A DNA stretch of 64,000 bases from a virus. The stretch is taken from positions 1 to 64,000 of the IMG/VR virus record IMGVR_UViG_3300042301_004094. One strand, 5' to 3'. Shown piece by piece: positions 10,750 to 25,367 of this stretch. The notes beneath the pieces are model-generated. The model was given only the letters and a program-made list of their open reading frames with translations. It made no database searches and was not told the origin of the DNA. Positions within the stretch are counted from its first letter, which is position 1. Every line of letters begins with the position of its first letter. Made by a program: the position numbers and the translations under genes.

Positions 10750-11370
10750 TTATTGATGATCAGATGGTGGGCAAATCATTTCTAATTCACTCCACTTAAA
10801 TTTAGGTTTTTCATTTAAGAATACATAGCATTTCCATTTCTTTTGTGTTTCGAAATAGATATGTTTCTGAAGATGTGAGGGGATTGCTGCGTTTGTAGGT
10901 ATTCTTTTTACAGGATTATCAAAATGAACTGTAATTAATACTGTTAAATTTTCAGCATCATCCCACTTTCTTTCTTGTTCCTCTAATAATCTCCATTCAC
11001 CTCTATTAAGGTATTGGTCTTGTAGGATACAATTTAGGTAGGAAAATGTTTGCTTTAAATTTTCTTGATTATCAGAAAATGTAGCAGCTGGTGCTCCATG
11101 TCCTTTATCGTAGATGTTTGCTTTGTAGTCATCCGCATCTGATGTTTTGATGTTTGGTTCCTTATAGAAATCCATTGAACCTCTATTTACATTCGTGGGA
11201 CGGTTTGTTGATCTATATTTAATTTTAAGAGGTTGTTCTAAACTTTGAGAATAAAGAACTTCAAATACATTATTTTTGATTATAATGTTTTGTGTAATTG
11301 GTGTTATACCTTGACTATAAGATACAACAGCTACTAATGTTAATAGTAGGGATATTAGGCATTTTTTCAT
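10750..11370 (-). CDS. Secreted DNA/RNA non-specific endonuclease (206 aa)
   Basis: NUC1-type beta-beta-alpha-metal nuclease. The signature DKGHGAPAA (residues 88-96, general base His91) replaces the usual DRGH, and the metal-ligand Asn lies in LNRGEW (about Asn122), followed by LLEEQERKW. Residues 1-20 form a cleavable signal peptide (KKCLISLLLTLVAVVSYSQG), so the enzyme would act in the periplasm or outside the cell. It would cut any nucleic acid. A phage exporting a nuclease is unusual; roles could be degrading competing DNA or recycling nucleotides (inference). Confidence 0.8.
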   Translation of the reverse strand: MKKCLISLLLTLVAVVSYSQGITPITQNIIIKNNVFEVLYSQSLEQPLKIKYRSTNRPTNVNRGSMDFYKEPNIKTSDADDYKANIYDKGHGAPAATFSDNQENLKQTFSYLNCILQDQYLNRGEWRLLEEQERKWDDAENLTVLITVHFDNPVKRIPTNAAIPSHLQKHIYFETQKKWKCYVFLNEKPKFKWSELEMICPPSDHQ

Positions 11371-13514: not shown

Positions 13515-14255
13515 TTATTTTAATTCTCCTAAAGATACGTCTCCATCTTTGACAATCAAATATTGTCTTGGTATTGTGTCTATAAAATAATAACGACCAC
13601 CAGTGGATTTACCTTCAATATCGATTTGTCTTTGACCTGTATGGCCTACTACTTGTCTAATCTTAGTACGTAATGTATCGTAATTAGCTTTCATTAATGA
13701 TTTAGGTCGAATCCAAATTGGACCTTGGAATGTCTCATCACCATAACCTCCAGTACCATACACTTGATCTCCAATTTGTTTATATGAACGATATCCTATT
13801 TTAAGGGGTTGATACTTGAATAAATCATTTAAGTACATAGCTAGATTAGGTACATCCCACATTACAATACTATCATTTAACCATTCACTACTTACACCAG
13901 CATGAGTAACTAAGAAATCATCAAACTGATAAGCTAGTTGTAAATGGTTTCTGTTAATATCAACAATATGTTGAATTGTAGGTGCCATTCTAACTTGGTA
14001 ACCCGAACAGCCATTTTCCCCAATTTCAGGGAAATAATGATAATCATGATTACCAATCAACAGTATAACTTCTTTATCTGTTGTAGTTTTAAATTCAATA
14101 ATATCTTGAAAATTTTGGCATTGTATTAAACCAGGAACATCAAATGAATCAAAATAATCACCTACAAAGATGAATCTATCTGCGTCTTGTTCTTGATTAA
14201 TAATTTGTTTCCATGCATCACGACCATGGATGTCTCCGATTATCACTGTTTTCAT
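13515..14255 (-). CDS. Calcineurin-like metallophosphoesterase (246 aa)
   Basis: Contains the metal-binding signature in order: GDIHGR (residues 7-12), FVGDYFDSF, LIGNHDYHYF and THAGVS. This is the arrangement of Ser/Thr protein phosphatase-type phosphoesterases (lambda PP family), which use two metal ions to hydrolyse phosphomonoesters. Cytoplasmic, full length. Substrate cannot be told; phage members remove phosphate from proteins or nucleotides. Confidence 0.85.
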   Translation of the reverse strand: MKTVIIGDIHGRDAWKQIINQEQDADRFIFVGDYFDSFDVPGLIQCQNFQDIIEFKTTTDKEVILLIGNHDYHYFPEIGENGCSGYQVRMAPTIQHIVDINRNHLQLAYQFDDFLVTHAGVSSEWLNDSIVMWDVPNLAMYLNDLFKYQPLKIGYRSYKQIGDQVYGTGGYGDETFQGPIWIRPKSLMKANYDTLRTKIRQVVGHTGQRQIDIEGKSTGGRYYFIDTIPRQYLIVKDGDVSLGELK

Positions 14256-14530: not shown

Positions 14531-14965
14531 CTATTGTTTTATAGAAACCATGTCACTTGAGTTGTATATTTTATCTCCCAATCCATCAACAATTTTTATT
14601 CCTAAAGAATCACAAATCATTTTTTCAGGAATCTCATTTGCAAATCTATCTCCCCCCTTTGTAAAAATAATTTCAGACTCGGGATCTAGAGATTTAATTT
14701 TATTATAAAGTAACTGAATTGTTTTACAAACACTACTATCTTGATCAATTGATATTTTTACATGATCAACATATCTGATAGATTCAATAACGGTTTTACG
14801 GTATTGTTCGTTTTGGAACGAAGGTATCCCACGTTTTAGTTCTGCTTGTTTATCATTATTTACTATAACCCACAATTCATCAACAATTTCTTTAGATAAC
14901 ATTAAACATTCAATATGGCCTGGATGGATTGGGTTTCCATACATTGAGGTTATTCCGTGTTTCAT
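14531..14965 (-). CDS. Cytidylyltransferase-like nucleotidyltransferase (144 aa)
   Basis: Starts with the superfamily signature GNPIHPGHIECL (HxGH motif), which binds the nucleotide phosphates, and has the C-terminal ISSSD-like counterpart IYNSSDMVSIK. It therefore transfers AMP or CMP to a phosphorylated small molecule, as in NMN adenylyltransferase or glycerol-3-phosphate cytidylyltransferase. Size (about 16 kDa) fits the single-domain type. The substrate is unknown; NAD salvage or sugar/lipid activation are both possible. Confidence 0.75.
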   Translation of the reverse strand: MKHGITSMYGNPIHPGHIECLMLSKEIVDELWVIVNNDKQAELKRGIPSFQNEQYRKTVIESIRYVDHVKISIDQDSSVCKTIQLLYNKIKSLDPESEIIFTKGGDRFANEIPEKMICDSLGIKIVDGLGDKIYNSSDMVSIKQ

Positions 14966-15982: not shown

Positions 15983-16150
15983 TTACTTAGTTACAGTTGT
16001 ATCATTAGGTGCGATACATTCTGTTGAATCTGTTACTACTGCTGTAGTGTCAGTTGATACTGCTGTTGAATCAGTTCCTTCAGTTGAAGTACCTTTACCA
16101 CCACATGCAGTCAAAGCTGCGATTGCGAAAATTGCGATTACTTTTTTCAT
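15983..16150 (-). CDS. Small lipoprotein (55 aa)
   Basis: Residues 1-16 form a lipoprotein signal ending in the lipobox LTAC (MKKVIAIFAIAALTAC), followed by GGKG and a Thr/Ser/Asp-rich tail. After lipidation on Cys16 it would be anchored in a membrane as a ~40-residue flexible peptide. The Thr-rich tail may be a tether or surface decoration. It is the first of several exported proteins encoded up to 24.9 kb. Promoter at 16183-16207. Confidence 0.7.
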   Translation of the reverse strand: MKKVIAIFAIAALTACGGKGTSTEGTDSTAVSTDTTAVVTDSTECIAPNDTTVTK

Positions 16151-16182
16151 TTGTTTGTTTTTGTTTAATAAATTTATTTGAT

Positions 16183-16207
16183 GTAAATATACGATTGAGG
16201 TTTTGAC
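16183..16207 (-). promoter_or_regulatory. Bipartite phage promoter (class I)
   Basis: Minus strand GTCAAAA, nine bases, TATATTTAC, 33 nt before the lipoprotein gene at 16150. Confidence 0.7.
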
Positions 16208-16217
16208 CGAACCAATT

Positions 16218-17618
16218 TTATAGTTGAAGTCTTGAACCTATTAGAAAGAAACTTAATATTGGAGAGCCAGGTACCGTTGATACACTAGCTTTATAATCAA
16301 TGTTAAATCCAAATCTTTTGCTCAATTTAAGACTGTATCCTGTGCCCACCAAACTCATTACATTATAATTCCAAGTACTTCCTAACTTACTGTTGTATGT
16401 GTATGGAGAGGCCATTAAGAACACTCCTGGAGATAAGGTTGATTTTCTGCTTATTTGATATGGTTTAGTCCAAAATGCTGTAGCTGATGACATCATTGAG
16501 TATGAATAACTATTTTCAGCTAATTTCAGTTTAATATTAATAATAGATAAGTTATACCCATATGTTCCATATTTCGGGTGAGGCACAACATGGGTGAAAC
16601 CACCAAAAGTCATATGTGTACCTGCTACGTAAGCAACGGTATATGAATAGGCATCTATTGATTTGAGTGCTCCGTTTTTAAAATTCATCGTGCTTTTATT
16701 AGCAGATAAAGCAAATGATTTAAAATCCATCCAAATCATACTTGATACACCCCAACTAGATTCACCTGTAGTTGATGCTTGAGACATACTTAATGACATG
16801 ACAGGTGTAAACCCACCAGTGGGATTTTGAGCTACAGTTAAATCAGAACCCAACATTATTGGATTCATTTTAACTTGTTTCTTTTCTTCTTTTTTATCCT
16901 CTTTCTTTTCTTCTTTAGATTCTTCCTTTTTTTCTTCTTTCTTTTCTTCTTTAGACTCAGATTTACTTTCTTCTTTTTTCTCTTCTGATTTGGATTCAGA
17001 CTTAGATTCAGATTTACTCTCTGACTTTGATTCGCTGCTTGAACTGCTGCTTTCGCTTTTCTTTTCTCCACCAGAATTTGATGAAGAGGAAGACCCAGAA
17101 GATGAAGACGATTGGGAAGATGATGATGAGGATGAAGAGGATGATGATTGGGTAGATGTACCACTCGAGGTAGCTGCTCCTGAACTTGCTGCTGACGCTC
17201 CTGTAGATGCGGCTCCTGAAGCTGCTCCACTTGCTGCTCCTGAGGCTGCATTTGATGCTGCTGAACTTGCTGCTGATGATGCTGCTGAGCTTGCTGCTTG
17301 AGATGCTGCTTGTGATACTGTATTTTGTACTGTTTGTGTTACTACGGGTGCTGCTACGGGACATGCTAGTGAATTATAGTAAGCGTAAGTTGTTTGGAGC
17401 CATATTTGTAATTCTCCACTTGCCACTTGTGCTGGAGTAAATGATCTTACCTGTCCATAAAATGATACTATTGAGTTACCATTTACTATGGTTGTAGTAG
17501 CAATTTTAACTTGACCTGAACATTTATCAATAAAAGTTTGAGTATAAACCTGCCCACTTGCTGTTTTAGCAAATAGGAAAAGGGTGATTAATAATAAACT
17601 TATTAACCATTTTTTCAT
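16218..17618 (-). CDS. Exported protein: Ala/Ser and Glu/Lys low-complexity linker plus beta-barrel-like domain (466 aa)
   Basis: Signal peptide about residues 1-22 (WLISLLLITLFLFAKTASGQ). A small N-terminal domain (~23-95) is followed by AS repeats, a poly-Ser tract, and a long ESKSESK/EEKKEE segment to about residue 250. The C-terminal ~215 residues have alternating aromatic/polar strands (MSSATAFWTKPYQISRK, WNYNVMSLVGTGYSLKLS), as in small outer-membrane beta-barrels. Probably a surface or periplasm-spanning protein. The low-complexity tract generates long spurious frames on other strands. Its ATG overlaps the stop of the CsgG-like gene (TAATG). Confidence 0.65.
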   Translation of the reverse strand: MKKWLISLLLITLFLFAKTASGQVYTQTFIDKCSGQVKIATTTIVNGNSIVSFYGQVRSFTPAQVASGELQIWLQTTYAYYNSLACPVAAPVVTQTVQNTVSQAASQAASSAASSAASSAASNAASGAASGAASGAASTGASAASSGAATSSGTSTQSSSSSSSSSSSQSSSSSGSSSSSNSGGEKKSESSSSSSESKSESKSESKSESKSEEKKEESKSESKEEKKEEKKEESKEEKKEDKKEEKKQVKMNPIMLGSDLTVAQNPTGGFTPVMSLSMSQASTTGESSWGVSSMIWMDFKSFALSANKSTMNFKNGALKSIDAYSYTVAYVAGTHMTFGGFTHVVPHPKYGTYGYNLSIINIKLKLAENSYSYSMMSSATAFWTKPYQISRKSTLSPGVFLMASPYTYNSKLGSTWNYNVMSLVGTGYSLKLSKRFGFNIDYKASVSTVPGSPILSFFLIGSRLQL

Positions 17619-18337
17619 TAGTTTGGAAATATGCCTTTCTTAACCATTCTATCTAAAATTCTAGCACAAGCGATATCTAATGCTTTCTTTGTTGCTATAG
17701 AAATAGTTGATTGATTGAATTTCATTTCATCCACAGTTGCATCTGATAAGAATGTTAATTCTCTAGTTGTAGTGGCTTCACCTAAACCAGATGCTGCAAA
17801 CACAACACCAGTCTCAGCATTAGTAAATCGAACTTGTAAACCAATACGAGTTACCATCATGTTTTTAACTCCATCTTTTAGGTTGATAGTTTCATCTTCA
17901 GATACTGAGTAATCATAACATTCGATTGTAACGAAGTATTCAGCTAGATTAATTTTACCTCGACCATCTAATTTATTCTCAGAAATACCTGCTTGTGATG
18001 CTTGGAATTGCTTAACCATTCTGTTTTTAATTTCTGTTTTATCTTCAGTAAATTTAAAACGATTAAGGTTCTCTAAATATTCCATTGAAATGTTAGCTAC
18101 ACCTAAACCAACTCTTTTTTCTTTTAATTCAGGATACATCTCATACATTTCATCAGATATACCTGCCTTTAAGATTTGAATTGGGATTTGTTTACCTTCA
18201 TAATCCATAAAACGAGAAATATCAATCGCAGTTTCGAATGATGCTTTATATTGTTCAGTTTTTGTTGAACCTACGTTTTGAGCCACAGCAATGTTGCTTA
18301 GTAAAAAGCAACTTAATAATATAAATAAATTTTTCAT
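17618..18337 (-). CDS. CsgG-like exported protein (239 aa)
   Basis: Start at ATG 18337 gives a clean signal peptide (MKNLFILLSCFLLSNIAVAQ) directly after a terminator; the longer frame reads through that terminator. The domain order fits CsgG/LpoB-like proteins: KRVGLGVANISMEYL strand, a helix FTEDKTEIKNRMVKQF, then YFVTIECYDYSV, RIGLQVRFTNAETGVVFAAS, GLGEATTT, and a final helix TKKALDIACARILDRM. CsgG forms the curli export pore in the outer membrane. The cleavage site here is not a lipobox, unlike true CsgG, so pore formation is uncertain. Confidence 0.6.
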   Translation of the reverse strand: MKNLFILLSCFLLSNIAVAQNVGSTKTEQYKASFETAIDISRFMDYEGKQIPIQILKAGISDEMYEMYPELKEKRVGLGVANISMEYLENLNRFKFTEDKTEIKNRMVKQFQASQAGISENKLDGRGKINLAEYFVTIECYDYSVSEDETINLKDGVKNMMVTRIGLQVRFTNAETGVVFAASGLGEATTTRELTFLSDATVDEMKFNQSTISIATKKALDIACARILDRMVKKGIFPN

Positions 18338-18351
18338 ACATGTTTTAAATT

Positions 18352-18377
18352 TAAAAAAGGGAACCGAAGTTCCCTTT
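18352..18377 (-). terminator. Rho-independent terminator
   Basis: Minus strand AAAGGGAAC-TTCG-GTTCCCTTTTTT: a perfect stem with UUCG loop and a U-run. It ends the transcript carrying the 79-aa membrane protein and separates it from the CsgG-like gene. Confidence 0.85.
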
Positions 18378-18389
18378 AGTTTTGTTTTT

Positions 18390-18629
18390 TTAATCTTCTT
18401 TCTTTTTATGAGAGAATTTATCGAATGTATCAGCACCCATTCCAATCGCGGTAATTACCATTACTGCGTTTACTAATTCAGCTGATGGAGCAAAATCAGC
18501 ATGTGAAAATGAGTTTAACATCATTGTAACACATAAGAACATAGCTCCTACAAATGCGATAACCGGTTTTACTGAAGTTGATCCTCTTTCATCTTTGAAT
18601 AGATCAATAACCCACTGTTTGAAATTCAT
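18390..18629 (-). CDS. Holin-like two-TM protein (79 aa)
   Basis: Two hydrophobic helices (PVIAFVGAMFLCVTMMLNSF and VNAVMVITAIGMGADTF) joined by a short turn, with a charged N-terminal amphipathic stretch and a basic tail (FDKFSHKKKED). Size and layout suit a small phage holin or related membrane protein, but no lysis gene is adjacent. A strong terminator follows directly. Confidence 0.5.
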   Translation of the reverse strand: MNFKQWVIDLFKDERGSTSVKPVIAFVGAMFLCVTMMLNSFSHADFAPSAELVNAVMVITAIGMGADTFDKFSHKKKED

Positions 18630-18647
18630 ACTTTTAATTTTTAATGG

Positions 18648-19256
18648 TTAGTGAGATTCGTCGTAAGCATCTTTCAATAAACCACACTTTTGACACTCTA
18701 ATTCACCGTCATTGTCTGAGTCACCCCAAACGTGTTCACAGTATCTATGTGCTTTCATTTCATGCTCTAATTTTAATTTAGCCATTTCTTGCTCATGTTC
18801 TTGAGCATCTTTAGCCATTGCTTGATTATGTTCTTGTTGATCAGCTGCTAATTCATGGTTTTGTTTATTTTCAACTACAGCTAAATCTCTAGCTGCTGCA
18901 GCACCTGCTACAAATGCATCTGGGATCAATGGAGTAACTGGTTTGTTTGTTTCTTTCATATCATTAGTATGACCTAAAGTAACACCATCTTCTTCATCCA
19001 TCTTCTGTACTAACATTTTATCTTTGTCAGTATCACTGAACCAGTAATCAATAATCTTACCATAACTACCAATGAAGGCACCTAACAATAACATTAATAA
19101 TTCTTTCCATGCTGCTGCCATTGGTGTTTGTCCCACAACAGCAGCAAAAATACCTGCTATTATTAAAATAAACCCACCTAATACCATTGCTGTGATGTAC
19201 CATCTTCTGGCCATCATCTTGTTTAATAATTCTTTAAATCCTGTGTTTGGTTGCAT
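18648..19256 (-). CDS. Membrane protein with coiled coil and zinc ribbon-like end (202 aa)
   Basis: Two TM helices near residues 18-40 and 48-66 (YITAMVLGGFILIIAGIFAA; ELLMLLLGAFIGSY). Next come a His/Glu/Gln-rich helix (QQEHNQAMAKDAQEHEQEMA) likely to coil, and a C-terminal CEHVWGDSDNDGELECQKCG with CxH...CxxC that could bind zinc. Inner-membrane protein with a cytoplasmic regulatory tail. No family recognised; part of the membrane/export block. Confidence 0.55.
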   Translation of the reverse strand: MQPNTGFKELLNKMMARRWYITAMVLGGFILIIAGIFAAVVGQTPMAAAWKELLMLLLGAFIGSYGKIIDYWFSDTDKDKMLVQKMDEEDGVTLGHTNDMKETNKPVTPLIPDAFVAGAAAARDLAVVENKQNHELAADQQEHNQAMAKDAQEHEQEMAKLKLEHEMKAHRYCEHVWGDSDNDGELECQKCGLLKDAYDESH

Positions 19257-19275
19257 ATCTAATTTTGTTTATAAA

Positions 19276-19599
19276 TTACCACTTAGGAGCTTCTTCCTTA
19301 AACTCATCACCCTCTTTTTTCTTAGCAGGTTTAGCTGCGGGTTGAGCGGCTGCTGGCTTTTCAACAACTCTTTCTTTAATTATAGTAGTTCCACCTGCAG
19401 ATTGTTGTTGTTGATTTGAGTTAGTAATGTTAATTACTGGAGCTGGTGCTGTAGCAGGAGCTGCTTCTTTATCACCACCTGTTAATTGAGTTACACCCCA
19501 AGTTCCTAAACCCATAACTGCTGTTGTAGCAACACCAATAATAGTCTTTTTTAATCCAGACCAAGTACCATCATTGTTTTGTTCTAATTCTTCTGACAT
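19276..19599 (-). CDS. Membrane-anchored Pro/Ala/Lys-rich protein (107 aa)
   Basis: One TM segment (TIIGVATTAVMGLGTWGV) near residues 18-37, then a flexible Ala/Pro and Gln-rich stretch and a KP/AK-rich end. The layout resembles TonB-like or spanin-like periplasmic tethers. It would reach from the inner membrane into the periplasm. No family recognised. Confidence 0.55.
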   Translation of the reverse strand: MSEELEQNNDGTWSGLKKTIIGVATTAVMGLGTWGVTQLTGGDKEAAPATAPAPVINITNSNQQQQSAGGTTIIKERVVEKPAAAQPAAKPAKKKEGDEFKEEAPKW

Positions 19600-19610
19600 T
19601 TTATTTAAAT

Positions 19611-19979
19611 TTATAGTTTGTTAAAATCTGTTATTCCTAATTCAATACCTTTAGAATCGTATAATCCAATTCTATAAGCAGATGAAGGCAATGCTGATGT
19701 ATATACTTTAAGTAAGTTATCACCTGCTTTAACCACTACGGTTTCTTTTGATACGACTCTATTGGAGATATCAAAAATCTTAATTGTAACGGATTGTGCT
19801 GTTTCTAACTTAACATTCATAGCAACTTCAGTTGTCACGAATGCTGATTCTAGTTTAAGTCCAACTGCATTTTGGATTTGCAATTCTTTTTTAACTTCTA
19901 AAACAGGTTCAATTAAATCATCTTTATAACATCCAGATAATCCAACTGCTAGTAATACTACTACAAGTAATTTTTTCAT
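19611..19979 (-). CDS. Lipoprotein with beta-sandwich domain (122 aa)
   Basis: Lipobox LSGC at residues 14-17 after MKKLLVVVLLAVG. The C-terminal ~75 residues (VTIKIFDISNRVVSKETVVV, GDNLLKVYTSALPSSAYRIG) follow the pattern of type IX secretion C-terminal domains (strand, D-SGRVV-like turn, G-x-N, LPxGxY-like), though placed on a lipoprotein. It would be anchored to a membrane by lipid. Paralogous to the adjacent 114-aa protein. Confidence 0.6.
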   Translation of the reverse strand: MKKLLVVVLLAVGLSGCYKDDLIEPVLEVKKELQIQNAVGLKLESAFVTTEVAMNVKLETAQSVTIKIFDISNRVVSKETVVVKAGDNLLKVYTSALPSSAYRIGLYDSKGIELGITDFNKL

Positions 19980-19980
19980 T

Positions 19981-20325
19981 TTAATTAATTTTAATGGTTG
20001 TTTTAGCTATTTGAGTTCTAGACCCATCTTCTAATACTAAGTATAAATATTGAGACTGTATTGAACTCGTGTAAATCTTCTTTATATTTTCGCCCGTTTT
20101 ACCAGTGAATCGTTCTCTACTAACAACTTGGTCATTTTTCTTATCAATCAGGGTTAATGTATATACTCCTGGTGATGGTAAATCAAAATGTATAGATTGT
20201 CCATCAGTTACACTACTCTCAGATACATTAAATATCTTTTGAACAGGGGTTGGAGTTGGTTCTATTTCCATTTTAGTACACCCCACTAATAAGACCACAA
20301 ATATTAGTAATATCTTTTTTATCAT
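19981..20325 (-). CDS. Lipoprotein, paralogue of the preceding (114 aa)
   Basis: Lipobox LVGC at residues 12-15 after MIKKILLIFVVL. The body (GVYTLTLIDKKNDQVVSRER, FTGKTGENIKKIYTSS) repeats the beta-sandwich pattern of the 122-aa neighbour, so the pair arose by duplication. Its start overlaps the stop of the large lectin protein by 4 nt. Role unknown; it probably sits beside its neighbours at the cell surface. Confidence 0.6.
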   Translation of the reverse strand: MIKKILLIFVVLLVGCTKMEIEPTPTPVQKIFNVSESSVTDGQSIHFDLPSPGVYTLTLIDKKNDQVVSRERFTGKTGENIKKIYTSSIQSQYLYLVLEDGSRTQIAKTTIKIN

Positions 20326-22598
20326 TTGATTTTTACTTTTAATTGTTTACCAGCTTTATTAACAGCATCTGTTGTTGATATTGATGTCAACCCTAATATA
20401 TCAGATATATTACCTACGGGAGTGAATATAACTCGATATTCAGTTGTCTTATCTAATACATCTCCACTTGTTATCAATGATCCTATATTAATTAAATTAC
20501 CTTTATCAGTTCCAAAATTAGTAGGATTACCTTTTGTTATAAATTCAACTTTTTCAAACTTTAATCTAGTATTATCATAATTTAATTGAAATTGTGTACC
20601 TACTAATTCTTGTTGTAATGGGTCTACTGATAATATAATTATAACCTTATTATTTATAATTTCACCTATAGTTGATACATTTATTTCATTTATAATAGCA
20701 TTACTCATTAAACTCATAGTTCTAATTGAATTGCTACTAACATTAGTAATGCTTTGTTGAGCTGAATGTGATTGGTTTACATCACCTAACCAAGTTACAT
20801 TTATGTTGTACGTATTATTCATTCCACTTAAAGTAAATGGAATTAAATTACGAGTTGAATTAAATTGAGTTCCCCAATTGCTCGTTGTTATAGCATCATA
20901 ATCTGATTTATTGTATAGCTTTATTAAATTTGTTAGAGTAGTATTTTGGGTAAGTGATTGAGTACCTGTTAAATGTTGTAATAATTTGTATGTGTCATTT
21001 TCATTAAATACACCATTACCATCAACATCAGCATTCATATATTGAATACCATTTGTTAAGCCTAATCCACTTTGATTACCAAATATACCTCCATCTGCTA
21101 ATTCCTTAAATGCTAGATAAACATCTGATACACCCACAATGTTATTATATAATGTATTCAATTCAGTTTGATTAGTATGAGATAATTCTATCCCATGTTG
21201 TTTAAACATCATATTAGGTGTGAATGTAAATTCCGCTCTTAATCCCCAGAAAAATCCAGCTCGTCTTATACTAGATGTAAATGATGAGCCTGAGAAATTA
21301 AGTTCTGTTGGTGATGAAATCCAATAAGCTGCCCATGTTCCATCATCCCATTGATATGTTACAGGCCCATTCCATAAATCAAATAACTGTAAACTTGTAA
21401 CATTACTTGCTGAGGTGCCTTGTGGAAATTCTCTCTTATCAATTAAAATTTGGTATCGTTGATTTTGAGGTTCATAATCATACACCACACACCACTCTAC
21501 TTCTCCACCTGTTGTTGTTGCTCTTACTCCCTCACCACTTACTTTTACTGTATCTAAATCATTTGTTAAATCTACTTTACCTAATCCACTTAATGCTCTT
21601 GATGTATTTGTTGTTACACCCCATGTATTATTTACAAACGTATTTGCTTTTGATGTAAATTTTGTTTCATCAACATTACCACCAAAATCAAAATTAAATC
21701 TTGCAGTTAATACATCTCCGTTTGTATGTGTTACTGAGTTAGTGTAGAATTCAGTGAATGTTGCATCATCTGGGTTGGTCCAAGTTCCATATTCAATTAC
21801 ATACGGATTTGAAAAATGATTTGGTAAATCGTTCCATTGAGAACCATTCCATTTAGTTACTGCATAATCTTCGTTACTACTATTGTTTGGTTCACCGGGT
21901 GCCCAGTTATTATACTGCCCTTGAATGTTTCCGGCAAATTGTCCGTTTGATGTTTTGATTAAAGTTCCTGCTTCCGGGCCAGCATCGATTCTCCATTGAC
22001 CTTCGACTAATTCATCAGTTAACGCAAACCAAATATTACTTTGAGGCACATTATTAAAAATAAATGCATCTTCATCTGCTGAAGTGATTGTTACTAAATA
22101 TCCTCTTTGTCCTTTAAATGTTGTATTTAATGATGCTGATCTTGCGTTTGTATAAGTTGCTCCGGTTGTTATTGGTCTATAAAAGTGTCCGTTTACACCA
22201 TTGTAATAATATCCTACTGGATTGACTGTTGCTGCCACAGATAATGCAACATTACCTCTTACCGAACCTGTATTTACTTTTAAAGATGCTAATGCCGTAT
22301 TAATACTTACCATCGTTCCAGTAACTACTAATCGAGTTTTATTACCTGTTAAAGTGAATCCACTTGCCGCTGTTAGACCTGTTGTTGTAGTTAAATTAAA
22401 TGTTGTACCAGTTGGTGGATTAACTAAACTAATTGATGCTAATAAAGTTGCAGTAGAATTAAATCCACTTAATACAAACCCACTAGCATCTTGTCCTGAT
22501 GTAGATTGTGTAAAAGATTTAGAGTCCGGAGCAGATACACTCTGTCCGAACCCTAAAAATGATGTTAATAAAAATAATGTAACTAATAGATATTTCAT
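20322..22598 (-). CDS. Exported C-type-lectin protein with dockerin- and cohesin-like modules (758 aa)
   Basis: Signal peptide about residues 1-19 (YLLVTLFLLTSFLGFGQ). A C-type lectin fold spans about 136-271: the WIGL-like IWFALTD, the EPNN calcium/sugar motif (236-239) and WND (255-257). A Ca-loop near 524-535 (DVDGNGVFNEND) looks like half a dockerin. The last ~110 residues (VIIILSVDPLQQELVGTQF, LNYDNTRLKFEKVEF) resemble a cohesin-type beta domain. So one protein may bind sugars and also dock to partners. It probably acts outside the cell or on its surface; a virion role is not excluded. Confidence 0.7.
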   Translation of the reverse strand: MKYLLVTLFLLTSFLGFGQSVSAPDSKSFTQSTSGQDASGFVLSGFNSTATLLASISLVNPPTGTTFNLTTTTGLTAASGFTLTGNKTRLVVTGTMVSINTALASLKVNTGSVRGNVALSVAATVNPVGYYYNGVNGHFYRPITTGATYTNARSASLNTTFKGQRGYLVTITSADEDAFIFNNVPQSNIWFALTDELVEGQWRIDAGPEAGTLIKTSNGQFAGNIQGQYNNWAPGEPNNSSNEDYAVTKWNGSQWNDLPNHFSNPYVIEYGTWTNPDDATFTEFYTNSVTHTNGDVLTARFNFDFGGNVDETKFTSKANTFVNNTWGVTTNTSRALSGLGKVDLTNDLDTVKVSGEGVRATTTGGEVEWCVVYDYEPQNQRYQILIDKREFPQGTSASNVTSLQLFDLWNGPVTYQWDDGTWAAYWISSPTELNFSGSSFTSSIRRAGFFWGLRAEFTFTPNMMFKQHGIELSHTNQTELNTLYNNIVGVSDVYLAFKELADGGIFGNQSGLGLTNGIQYMNADVDGNGVFNENDTYKLLQHLTGTQSLTQNTTLTNLIKLYNKSDYDAITTSNWGTQFNSTRNLIPFTLSGMNNTYNINVTWLGDVNQSHSAQQSITNVSSNSIRTMSLMSNAIINEINVSTIGEIINNKVIIILSVDPLQQELVGTQFQLNYDNTRLKFEKVEFITKGNPTNFGTDKGNLINIGSLITSGDVLDKTTEYRVIFTPVGNISDILGLTSISTTDAVNKAGKQLKVKIK

Positions 22599-24247
22599 TA
22601 TTCTATTATTAAGTCTATTTTATTTCCTTTAGCATCTACCGCATCTGATAATACAAAATAGAATAAACCTGCAGTATTTGTTAATTGTACTTTAGGGGTG
22701 AATATTAATTTATATGGTGTACCAATTTTGATTCTTGCTGTTTTTAATTGATCAATAGAACCAAATGTTAATCTACCATCATTATGAGTTGAAAAGTTAG
22801 TAATAGTTGAACCTGAATCAAATATGATATTGTCTAATGTTAATTTAGATTCATCATAATTCATTATCACTTGTAACCCAGCTAATTCTGCTTTAGTTAA
22901 TGTTGTTGTTAATATTACTTTACCATTTTCTAATGTAGATGTTACACTTAATTTAGCAGTTTCTACAGCTTCAGTTCTATATGCCATCACAGGTGTTGAA
23001 CTCATTGATTTTTTCAAATTCACTTCACCATTAACTGAGTTGGTATACAATCCACTACTAATTCTAGTAGCAATTACAGCAGGGTCTGATGAGTGTGACC
23101 AGTTCAAATCACCACCCCAAGCAAATACGGCATGTACTTCTTTTATTGGTGTATCAATTAATACTTTATTTTTAGCAACACCATCTAACCAACTCTGGTT
23201 TAATAGTCCACTTTGCCATCTTACTGATGTTGAGGTTGATGTTGGGATCATTGCTACTGAACTCATATTTTGTCCCATTACGTGAGCAAACAATGCATAT
23301 GAATCGGATTCGTTAAATGTATTATCATTTAGTGTTACATTACCTACTCTAGTTTCTAAATTAGGGTAAGTAAAGAAATTAGGTGTTCCACTAATATCAG
23401 TTTGAGAATGTCCTAAAAATGCTTTGTATGCATCTGATACTGTTATGATATTATTCATCCAAGCTTTAGTCATTGATGGACCAACAAATACACCAACCGA
23501 ATCACCAACTTTAACTTGTGTTGTAAATAATGCTTCACCACTACCATCTAAGGGTAATTGAGCAATAGGTTGTTTTGTCCAATCAATATTACCATCTGTT
23601 TTAAGTGGCATTAATTGAACATTGTGATCAGTAATAGTATACCCTTGTGGGAACAATACTTTAACTTTGAATTGAGATGTGTTACCTGTTACATTTGTTA
23701 ATGATAAATTAGTAGCACTACGAGTAATTGGAGTAATTGGGGAAGAAGTATCATTTACTGCATAAGCTAAATCCAATTTATGAATATCATTGTAAGTGTT
23801 TTGGTCTTTTAATACAAACTTCTGTGTTGCAATATCACCATTCACTGCAGCATCTGTTCTTTGAACTGTTAATTGTCCAACATTCCAATCATTATTTACG
23901 GCATAACCCCAAGGAGTTGCTTGATATTGTCCAGATAAATTAGTTTCAGCAACATTTGCTGCAGGGGTAAATCTGTAATTATTCCAACCTGTAAAGAATG
24001 TTTGAACTGATGTACCTTGTGAGAATACTGTACTATTTGGTACCATCGCTAATGCCTTGTTATTAAATGAGTATCTCAACCAAAAATAACGAGGTGTTGT
24101 TGTTCCTCTAGCTATTGTGTATTTTACAGTTAAAGTATCACCAACTTCATAAGGTGGGGCTGGAGTAACTGATTGTGATACAGTAATCTGACTAAATGAT
24201 GTTAATGATGTTAGGAATATTCCTAAAAATAATAATAATTTTTTCAT
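22598..24247 (-). CDS. Exported protein with dockerin- and cohesin-like modules (549 aa)
   Basis: ATG 24247 gives a signal peptide (MKKLLLFLGIFLTSLTSFSQ); the longer frame uses a TTG. Beta-rich N-terminal domains follow. A dockerin-like loop (LNDNTFNESDSYALFAHVMG) lies around residue 320. The last ~110 residues (VILTTTLTKAELAGLQVIMN, YDESKLTLDNIIFD) match the cohesin-like end of the lectin protein, so the two are paralogues over their C-terminal halves. Their loops and cohesin-like ends could pair with each other (inference). Overlaps the lectin gene by 1 nt. Confidence 0.65.
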   Translation of the reverse strand: MKKLLLFLGIFLTSLTSFSQITVSQSVTPAPPYEVGDTLTVKYTIARGTTTPRYFWLRYSFNNKALAMVPNSTVFSQGTSVQTFFTGWNNYRFTPAANVAETNLSGQYQATPWGYAVNNDWNVGQLTVQRTDAAVNGDIATQKFVLKDQNTYNDIHKLDLAYAVNDTSSPITPITRSATNLSLTNVTGNTSQFKVKVLFPQGYTITDHNVQLMPLKTDGNIDWTKQPIAQLPLDGSGEALFTTQVKVGDSVGVFVGPSMTKAWMNNIITVSDAYKAFLGHSQTDISGTPNFFTYPNLETRVGNVTLNDNTFNESDSYALFAHVMGQNMSSVAMIPTSTSTSVRWQSGLLNQSWLDGVAKNKVLIDTPIKEVHAVFAWGGDLNWSHSSDPAVIATRISSGLYTNSVNGEVNLKKSMSSTPVMAYRTEAVETAKLSVTSTLENGKVILTTTLTKAELAGLQVIMNYDESKLTLDNIIFDSGSTITNFSTHNDGRLTFGSIDQLKTARIKIGTPYKLIFTPKVQLTNTAGLFYFVLSDAVDAKGNKIDLIIE

Positions 24248-24251
24248 GATT

Positions 24252-24902
24252 TTATTTTTCAAATAATTTTGTGACTAATTTATCACAACCTTTTTTGAGA
24301 GCATTACTTAGTGAAGTTTGATTAAATTTACCACCTTCATCCACAAGTAAAGTAGACATGGAAACTTCAGATGAAGATTCTTCAACAATAATTTCTTTTT
24401 CTTTTATACCATCTTTATATAAGATTCCTTTTAAACGAATAATGACTTCTTCTTCACCTTTATGGAAAACTGAAATATTTTTCTTAGTAGTTAATACATC
24501 TAAATAAACAATTTCGACACGTAATTTGTTTGTAGCGTCTGATGATATATTATAGCCTTTATCTTGTAAAAATTCTTCTAATACATTCTTAACACCAAAT
24601 TCTAGATTACGATTACCTGCTAATTTACCAACAACTATTTTATTAGTAACTTTTTCAACATAGATATGTTCATCTGCGTTATACCAGATATTACCTGGGG
24701 AATTTTTAAATGTACCGTCAATTTTATGACTAATTGCATTAGACATTTGTAAATTTTCATCATAAGATTTAAAAATTTGACAATATACAAAATACAATTG
24801 TACTACTAATGCAGCTATTACAAGGGATCCTAGTAAATAGAACACACCTAGCGCGAACACATCACGCAGTTTGGTGGCCATGTTTATGGCTATTTGTTTC
24901 AT
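24252..24902 (-). CDS. Membrane-anchored CsgG/LpoB-fold-like protein (216 aa)
   Basis: A TM anchor at about residues 17-39 (VFYLLGSLVIAALVVQLYFV) precedes a periplasmic domain. That domain has strands VEIVYLDVLTTKKNISVF and EVIIRLKGILYKDGIKEKE, and a final helix NALKKGCDKLVTKLFEK. The order resembles the CsgG-like protein at 17.6 kb and LptE/LpoB-type folds. It heads the exported block downstream of the tmRNA and could be the inner-membrane partner of that apparatus (inference). Confidence 0.5.
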   Translation of the reverse strand: MKQIAINMATKLRDVFALGVFYLLGSLVIAALVVQLYFVYCQIFKSYDENLQMSNAISHKIDGTFKNSPGNIWYNADEHIYVEKVTNKIVVGKLAGNRNLEFGVKNVLEEFLQDKGYNISSDATNKLRVEIVYLDVLTTKKNISVFHKGEEEVIIRLKGILYKDGIKEKEIIVEESSSEVSMSTLLVDEGGKFNQTSLSNALKKGCDKLVTKLFEK

Positions 24903-24970: not shown

Positions 24971-24976
24971 AAATTG

Positions 24977-25367
24977 TGGAGGTGAAGGGAGTCGAACCCT
25001 TGTCCAGATACGGATTTAATAAATCTCGTTCACAAGCTTAGTTAATTTTTCTAAATTAACAAAATATGAAGTTTGATGTATGTGGGAATCATACTTCCAA
25101 ATTACCTGGTTGTGGAATTATTTTATGAGGGCTCCACCCTAAGACCCCCTTTGTAGGCACTTCTGTTCCTAGGTTATATGTGCACCGACCCGAGTTGGAC
25201 TAGGCAGCTACTGCGTAATCCGCACCAACGAATGCCATAGCATCTTCGAAGGTCATTGTAGATAATTCTACGTCATTTATTGTTCGATAGGTATTTACGG
25301 ATTTCCATCTAACCCGGCTTGCATCAACTATACCAACTCATCGCACCTGTCAAAACCAGGCACCCCC
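24977..25367 (-). ncRNA. ssrA: tmRNA (transfer-messenger RNA)
   Basis: The 5' end GGGGGTGCCTGGTTTTGACA pairs with the 3' acceptor CACCTCC-A, and the 3' part has the T-arm AGGGTTCGACTCCCTT. Between them, 391 nt hold pseudoknot-like repeats and a tag frame ending GADYAVAA and a TAG at 25200-25202. The frame stays open upstream (EDAMAFVGADYAVAA), so the resume codon is uncertain. No CCA is encoded. tmRNA rescues stalled ribosomes together with SmpB, which is not encoded here, so the host protein would be used. Confidence 0.9.

Follow-up and report, generated by a model that had tools for sequence, protein, structure and literature searches.

Ten tightly packed genes, here called A to J, run from position 24902 to position 16218 on the minus strand of the 64,000-nucleotide stretch of viral DNA that was analysed (the window), and most of them encode exported or membrane proteins. 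Since the intergenic gaps measure only -11 to +58 bp and four of them are overlaps, we treat A-J as one operon-like unit. The virus record is 133 kb long, the window being its first 64 kb, and comes from a T4-like phage that is kin to Flavobacterium phage immuto by its structural genes (major capsid 58-60%, terminase 54%, portal 56%); a nucleotide search of known phages gave no match. Within the record the head genes occupy ~108-123 kb, the tail genes 63-75 kb and the replication genes 53-62 kb. The block, at 16-25 kb, adjoins a tmRNA gene and five tRNA genes, and both here and in immuto it is far from the structural genes, tens of kb from those for head and tail. The tmRNA gene (24976-25367) is complete and stands directly upstream of the block (Rfam 100 bits; ARAGORN tag DVELSTMTFEDAMAFVGADYAVAA), with tRNAs Leu, Met, Thr, Ser and Glu behind it; phage Melnitz, a carrier of CsgGF, also has a tmRNA. 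Just beyond the block are a nucleotidyltransferase-like gene (14531-14965) and a metallophosphoesterase-like gene (13515-14255), both recognised by eye and kept in the closest relatives.

Gene A (24252-24902) encodes a second CsgG/YajG-type periplasmic protein of 216 aa with an N-terminal membrane anchor. The two large exported proteins come next: B (22598-24262, 554 aa), with an EF-hand/dockerin-like region at about residues 316-390 and a cohesin-like C-terminus, and C (20322-22598, 758 aa), with a C-type lectin domain, a dockerin-like loop (ADVDGNGVFNENDTY) and a predicted cohesin C-terminus. D (19981-20325, 114 aa; lipobox VGC, then TKMEIE) is a lipoprotein with a domain related to the T9SS C-terminal domain (CTD), and E (19611-19979, 122 aa) is a lipoprotein with a C-Y-K-D-D surface-export signal and a CTD-like Ig domain. 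F (19276-19599) is a small membrane protein with a P/Q-rich tail and a terminal Trp, G (18648-19256) a small inner-membrane protein with a hydrophilic tail, and H (18390-18629) a membrane protein of 79 aa that is holin-like by size only. I (17618-18331, 237 aa) is an exported protein with a modelled CsgG fold and the conserved hub of the set, and J (16218-17618) is exported, with a signal peptide, an N-terminal domain, a low-complexity S/E/K-rich linker and a probable C-terminal outer-membrane beta-barrel. K (15983-16150, minus strand, 55 aa; lipobox TAC, then GGKGTS) is a lipoprotein lacking the surface-export signal. It lies 67 bp past J and is probably a neighbour outside the module; in other phages its relatives occupy other places, in some cases on the opposite strand. 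The lipoboxes of D, E and K were called by sequence, and F, G and H (19599-18390) were called membrane proteins from hydrophobic stretches judged by eye.

This inventory confirms the observation made in a sequence-only reading of the same DNA, every listed component of which is present: two CsgG-fold-like proteins, one exported (I, through its CsgG-fold model) and one anchored (A), a beta-barrel-like protein (J, by its signal peptide, linker and barrel-like C-terminus), two large exported proteins (B and C, the lectin domain lying in C) and several inner-membrane proteins (F, G and H). Its three lipoproteins all have lipoboxes, but K probably drops out of the module. It had also taken the genes to form a coherent set and called for a comparison across related phages; the tight packing and the recurrence described below bear this out. 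That reading did not pick up the cohesin and dockerin modules, the surface-export signal of the lipoproteins or the T9SS sorting domains that relatives carry.

We scanned IMG/VR twice for I, obtaining 477 and 113 relatives, and took on the best 80 of each. Full loci (n=85) were those that extend 8.5 kb or more upstream and 5 kb or more downstream of I. Because these loci were picked by I, the figures describe what accompanies I and not how frequent I is. A and a B/C-type protein were present in 85 of 85 and J in 83, followed by F (65/85), the G family (55/85) and the H family c6 (44/85). The block is a conserved module, beyond chance, and the operon is found in hundreds of phages from aquatic settings with Flavobacteria-like hosts. 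Among 50,697 deposited phage records I matched immuto records only, and among phages with related capsids one of 17 larger contigs, the already-known one, had I, most contigs of that kind being fragments.

Protein I had no Pfam match, none to the CsgG profile, and no sequence or profile match in the PDB. Its AlphaFold2 model, built from 50 relatives, reached a pLDDT of 78.7 and a pTM of 0.77. In a Foldseek search of the PDB with this model, CsgG, in both pore and pre-pore forms, made up the top 15 of 35 matches at E of 1e-3 or below (best 2.2e-6, TM ~0.5), followed by GNA1162, HP0492, LptE, FlgT and, further down, PelC. Against a viral structure library the sole match below 1e-3 was an uncultured phage protein named CsgG. 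Since its top PDB matches are all CsgG, I has, as modelled, the CsgG fold. At the places that we take to be those of the CsgG hairpins, I has segments of similar length with invariant acids (E125-D126-E127 and E165) and no hydrophobic alternation, a pattern that argues against CsgG-type transmembrane hairpins. Most members of the I family, the window protein included, carry an SPI-type signal instead of a lipobox, and a few relatives (L133, L163) look like lipoproteins. Neither CsgF nor the curli subunits CsgA/B gave a Pfam match among the block proteins or the tested relatives. The secretion part of the sequence-only reading, taken as a system built on a CsgG pore, is thus not supported: I lacks the lipid anchor and the obvious hairpins of CsgG, and neither CsgF nor a curli subunit was detected. 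A matched the YajG-like family Lipoprotein_16 above the Pfam cut-off (3.8e-6), and immuto gp19 is a relative of A (E 4e-7). Periplasmic proteins of the PelC, LptE and YajG type share a fold family with I and A and are without membrane hairpins. All three are bacterial envelope proteins, PelC and LptE serving exopolysaccharide and LPS export, whereas I is phage-specific save for two metagenome-assembled contigs, the only matches among bacterial and archaeal genomes.

In C, Pfam identified Lectin_C (1.6e-6); B itself had no Pfam match. The C-terminus of the C model resembles solved cohesins in the fold search (best TM 0.67 to 2jh2, E 3e-6), and by this model it folds as a cohesin. Per-member Pfam scans found Cohesin in 22 of 42 window-clade B/C relatives (best 1.4e-7), and among 40 others they found Cohesin in 15 (best 1.4e-12), Lectin_C in 18 and Dockerin_1 in 12 (best 2.3e-4). 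Cohesin and Por_Secre_tail occur together on immuto gp15, L151 and L133, all above the curated cut-offs. The cohesin calls rest on these scans and on the fold search, which replaced a local hhalign comparison of the C-terminal domains; the latter was dropped for its high probabilities over edge columns and its mixing by relatives with fused sorting domains. As with I, sequence-only PDB searches with J and C gave no match. A strict dockerin loop, D-x-N-x-D...D, was present in 25 of 30 distinct lectin sequences versus 3 of 4028 other ORFs. C of the window phage has this loop and B a degenerate form of it; across the window clade, similarity to dockerins is weak, and by eye the second calcium loop seems truncated. 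Phage cohesin-dockerin modules were not reported in the papers searchable to us, whose coverage is incomplete.

Export signals are a consistent property of the set. A predicted SPI site followed by Gln occurred in 107/114 I, 115/127 B/C-type, 108/110 J and 27/30 lectin sequences, and the signal peptide of B ends at SFS before such a Gln; the same feature was found in 0/78 control proteins and in 216 of 3574 background ORFs (6%). Gln at +1 after the SPI site is the Bacteroidota Q-rule (PMC5837995). The lipoproteins carry a different signal. E starts with CYKDDL, which fits C-X-K-(D/E)2-X, the signal that experiments in Capnocytophaga established for lipoprotein export (PMC5080379), and D fits it in part (CTKMEIE). 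Across 37 distinct N-termini of the D/E family, Lys stood at +3 in 59%, an acidic residue at +4 in 51% and at +5 in 68%. Pfam matches of E lay below cut-off (DUF3244 9e-4, Por_Secre_tail 0.029), and eleven lipoproteins of the D/E family matched the T9SS sorting-domain model, with E down to 1.4e-5. Neither B nor C of the window gave a Pfam match to a type A C-terminal sorting domain, which is present in relatives (Por_Secre_tail 1.7e-11). Across the 85 loci, 34 had a lipoprotein (D/E or c12), 48 had a sorting domain on a cohesin-family protein and 3 had neither, one of the three (L076) being of a type that matches Por_Secre_tail in Pfam. Five nominal overlaps of lipoprotein and CTD are read as D/E proteins that themselves match the CTD model. 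We take the surface lipoprotein and the fused CTD to be alternative anchors that replace each other; the replacement events are not independent, since the split partly follows the two clades of I.

For J, the terminal residue is Leu or Phe in 139 of 148 proteins of its type, and matches to the barrel family DUF5777 are weak (0.005) and found in 2 of 19. A hydrophobicity-alternation score failed to separate barrels from soluble proteins. The terminal residue and the DUF5777 matches weakly favour a probable outer-membrane beta-barrel. Several phages have, between C and D, another exported barrel-like protein (L012:7035-7922) that is 22% identical to the C-terminus of J. F has a relative in immuto (gp16, 43% identical), and neither G nor H matched Pfam or PHROG.

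Conservation is higher for I than for the major capsid protein: I is 87-93% identical to the window protein in phages whose capsid proteins are 45-58% identical to that of the window phage, the capsid alignment in the most distant group covering the protein in parts only. Beyond the two closest relatives of the window phage, synonymous sites were near saturation (pS 0.51-0.75) while the dN of I was 0.05-0.11, compared with 0.25-0.52 for A and 0.12-0.40 for F of the same clade. We rejected a recent transfer of I alone as the cause of its high identity, since dN is 0.05-0.09 at dS from about 1 to saturation; this is purifying selection. I is thus kept nearly unchanged, and a conserved host partner may be what constrains it. 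Two clades of I and two capsid types occur in all four combinations. With capsids at ~60%, clade 1 is found in G003 and G009 and clade 2 in G012-G017; with capsids at ~46%, clade 1 is found in G004 and G006-G008 and clade 2 in G021, G025 and G027. The module, or at least I, has therefore moved between phage lineages. A small exported protein with an HExxH-like motif (L151:14506-14937, VIVHESFH; weak Peptidase_M48 match, 0.096) has family members near the block in 30 of the 85 full loci. A complete TonB-dependent receptor (L008:10796-14475, L172-L251; Plug 4.2e-8, barrel 2.2e-25), with the gene for a ~398-aa lipoprotein following it, is found in related phages. The pair matched 113 IMG/VR stretches, and 26 of the best 80 loci hold I, with the pair mostly inside the block. 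A phage precedent is one SusC-like gene in megaphage Mar_Mega_1 (PMC9723777).

The closest known counterpart is in immuto (vB_FspM_immuto, NC_055915), whose gp13-gp19 form an equivalent set. It shares the lectin, an exported dockerin-type protein, a cohesin protein, F (43%), I (51%) and the J-type and A-type proteins, and it differs in having a T9SS sorting domain on the cohesin protein and no D/E lipoproteins. Its record names the cohesin and lectin domains and leaves the remaining module proteins hypothetical. The immuto set lies 65-110 kb from the structural genes. Published work from 2020-2022 describes CsgG-bearing phages of SAR11 and OM43 (PMC7029224, PMC9004378, PMC9599517). The earlier statement that no known phage system has this set thus needs qualifying on both counts. 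Like the window block, the curli genes of the pelagiphages and Melnitz place a phage CsgG-fold protein in an operon of exported proteins. They contain recognisable CsgG and CsgF, and in some cases curli repeat proteins, whereas the window block has none of these and carries cohesin, dockerin, lectin and surface lipoproteins instead. Cryophage (PMC7468147) likewise encodes proteins bearing T9SS sorting domains, for which the host system is the presumed exporter, but its cargo consists of variable enzymes and a PA14 protein, whereas the module described here is conserved and has cohesin-dockerin parts. Cellulosome scaffoldins also combine cohesin and dockerin modules, a surface anchor and a carbohydrate-binding domain; unlike them, the block is phage-encoded, no enzymes were found in its core set and its dockerin is partly degenerate.

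From these parts and targeting signals, which can be read in the loci themselves, we infer a function. We consider it reasonably likely that the block is an envelope or surface-display module that works in the infected cell. Most of its proteins carry Sec signals, either SPI with Gln at +1 or lipoprotein signals. I, A, F and J would together act as an adaptor linking the periplasm with the outer membrane. Outside the cell, B and C would be joined by predicted cohesin-dockerin contacts and would be anchored by the surface lipoproteins D/E in the window clade or by a fused T9SS sorting domain in the immuto clade. If B and C are docked and anchored in this way, the infected cell would display a lectin. 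The purpose is the least certain step. Our first choice is that the display might mask receptors or exclude rival phages (superinfection exclusion); alternatively, it might tether the cell to neighbours or particles and so bring progeny into contact with hosts. Of the proposal that the block resembles a bacterial secretion or adhesion system, a probable surface assembly, rather than a virion module, is what we retain, and secretion around a CsgG pore is what we give up. More tentatively, and at a probability short of even, the block could be a cellulosome-like lectin assembly that uses two host export routes and a phage-specific CsgG-fold hub and is traded among T4-like lineages.

An unlikely alternative, though the foremost, is that the CsgG-fold protein, the barrel and the small membrane proteins act at lysis by permeabilising or bridging the envelope. 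Such a role has been suggested for CsgGF of phage Melnitz, a precedent that is itself only a proposal. An endolysin (PG_binding_1 + GH19) is near the block in 51 of the 85 full loci, a nearness that also fits late expression and so counts against the surface-display reading, and the block contains small membrane proteins of holin size. These holin-sized proteins have no Pfam or PHROG assignment, and there is no endolysin in the window block, nor was the c5-type endolysin found in the window genome. In immuto the annotated endolysin and holin lie at 43.7-44.8 kb, away from the module, which adjoins nucleotide-metabolism genes. A lysis module would give no obvious role to the lectin, cohesin and T9SS sorting domains, and I is without clear pore hairpins. 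Another alternative is a curli-like (type VIII) system, in which I would be an outer-membrane pore exporting B, C or other subunits. CsgG, pore and pre-pore, is the best structural match of I and phage CsgG modules exist, but the hairpin positions hold invariant acids without hydrophobic alternation and the window I is not a lipoprotein. B and C are large, folded and multidomain, unlike curli subunits, and equivalent proteins in relatives have T9SS sorting domains, which leaves this route improbable.

A similarly low probability attaches to the idea that the infected-cell surface captures nutrients or extracellular DNA to feed phage replication. The receptor and lipoprotein pair does lie inside the block in about a third of TonB-receptor loci, and an exported DNA/RNA non-specific endonuclease (10750-11370; Endonuclease_NS 1.5e-21) is encoded ~4.8 kb beyond J in the window, with a relative adjoining the block in immuto. 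The pair is absent from the window phage, however, and is often elsewhere in the genome, and the nuclease family is near the block in only 18 of the 85 full loci. Least probable of all, to the point that we give it very little weight, is a virion component, for instance a set that binds receptors or determines host range. Phage tails do include C-type lectins, and the L151 lectin matches a PHROG of virion structural proteins (2.9e-8), which leaves a small opening for the lectin domain in virions. Tailed-phage virions are assembled in the cytoplasm, and Sec-exported proteins are not expected in them; the Sec signals on nearly all members are hard to square with such assembly, and the block is tens of kb from the head and tail genes.

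The surface-display module can be tested because a cultured phage, immuto (host Flavobacterium sp. LMO8), carries the set. If the module works as proposed, hundreds of common aquatic phages would remodel the surface of infected cells with cellulosome docking modules, delivered by the T9SS or lipoprotein export of the host. It would then help to address the reason for CsgG-type genes in phages, which the pelagiphage work did not settle. In its cellulosome-like form, the block would represent a new class of phage-built cell-surface machine.
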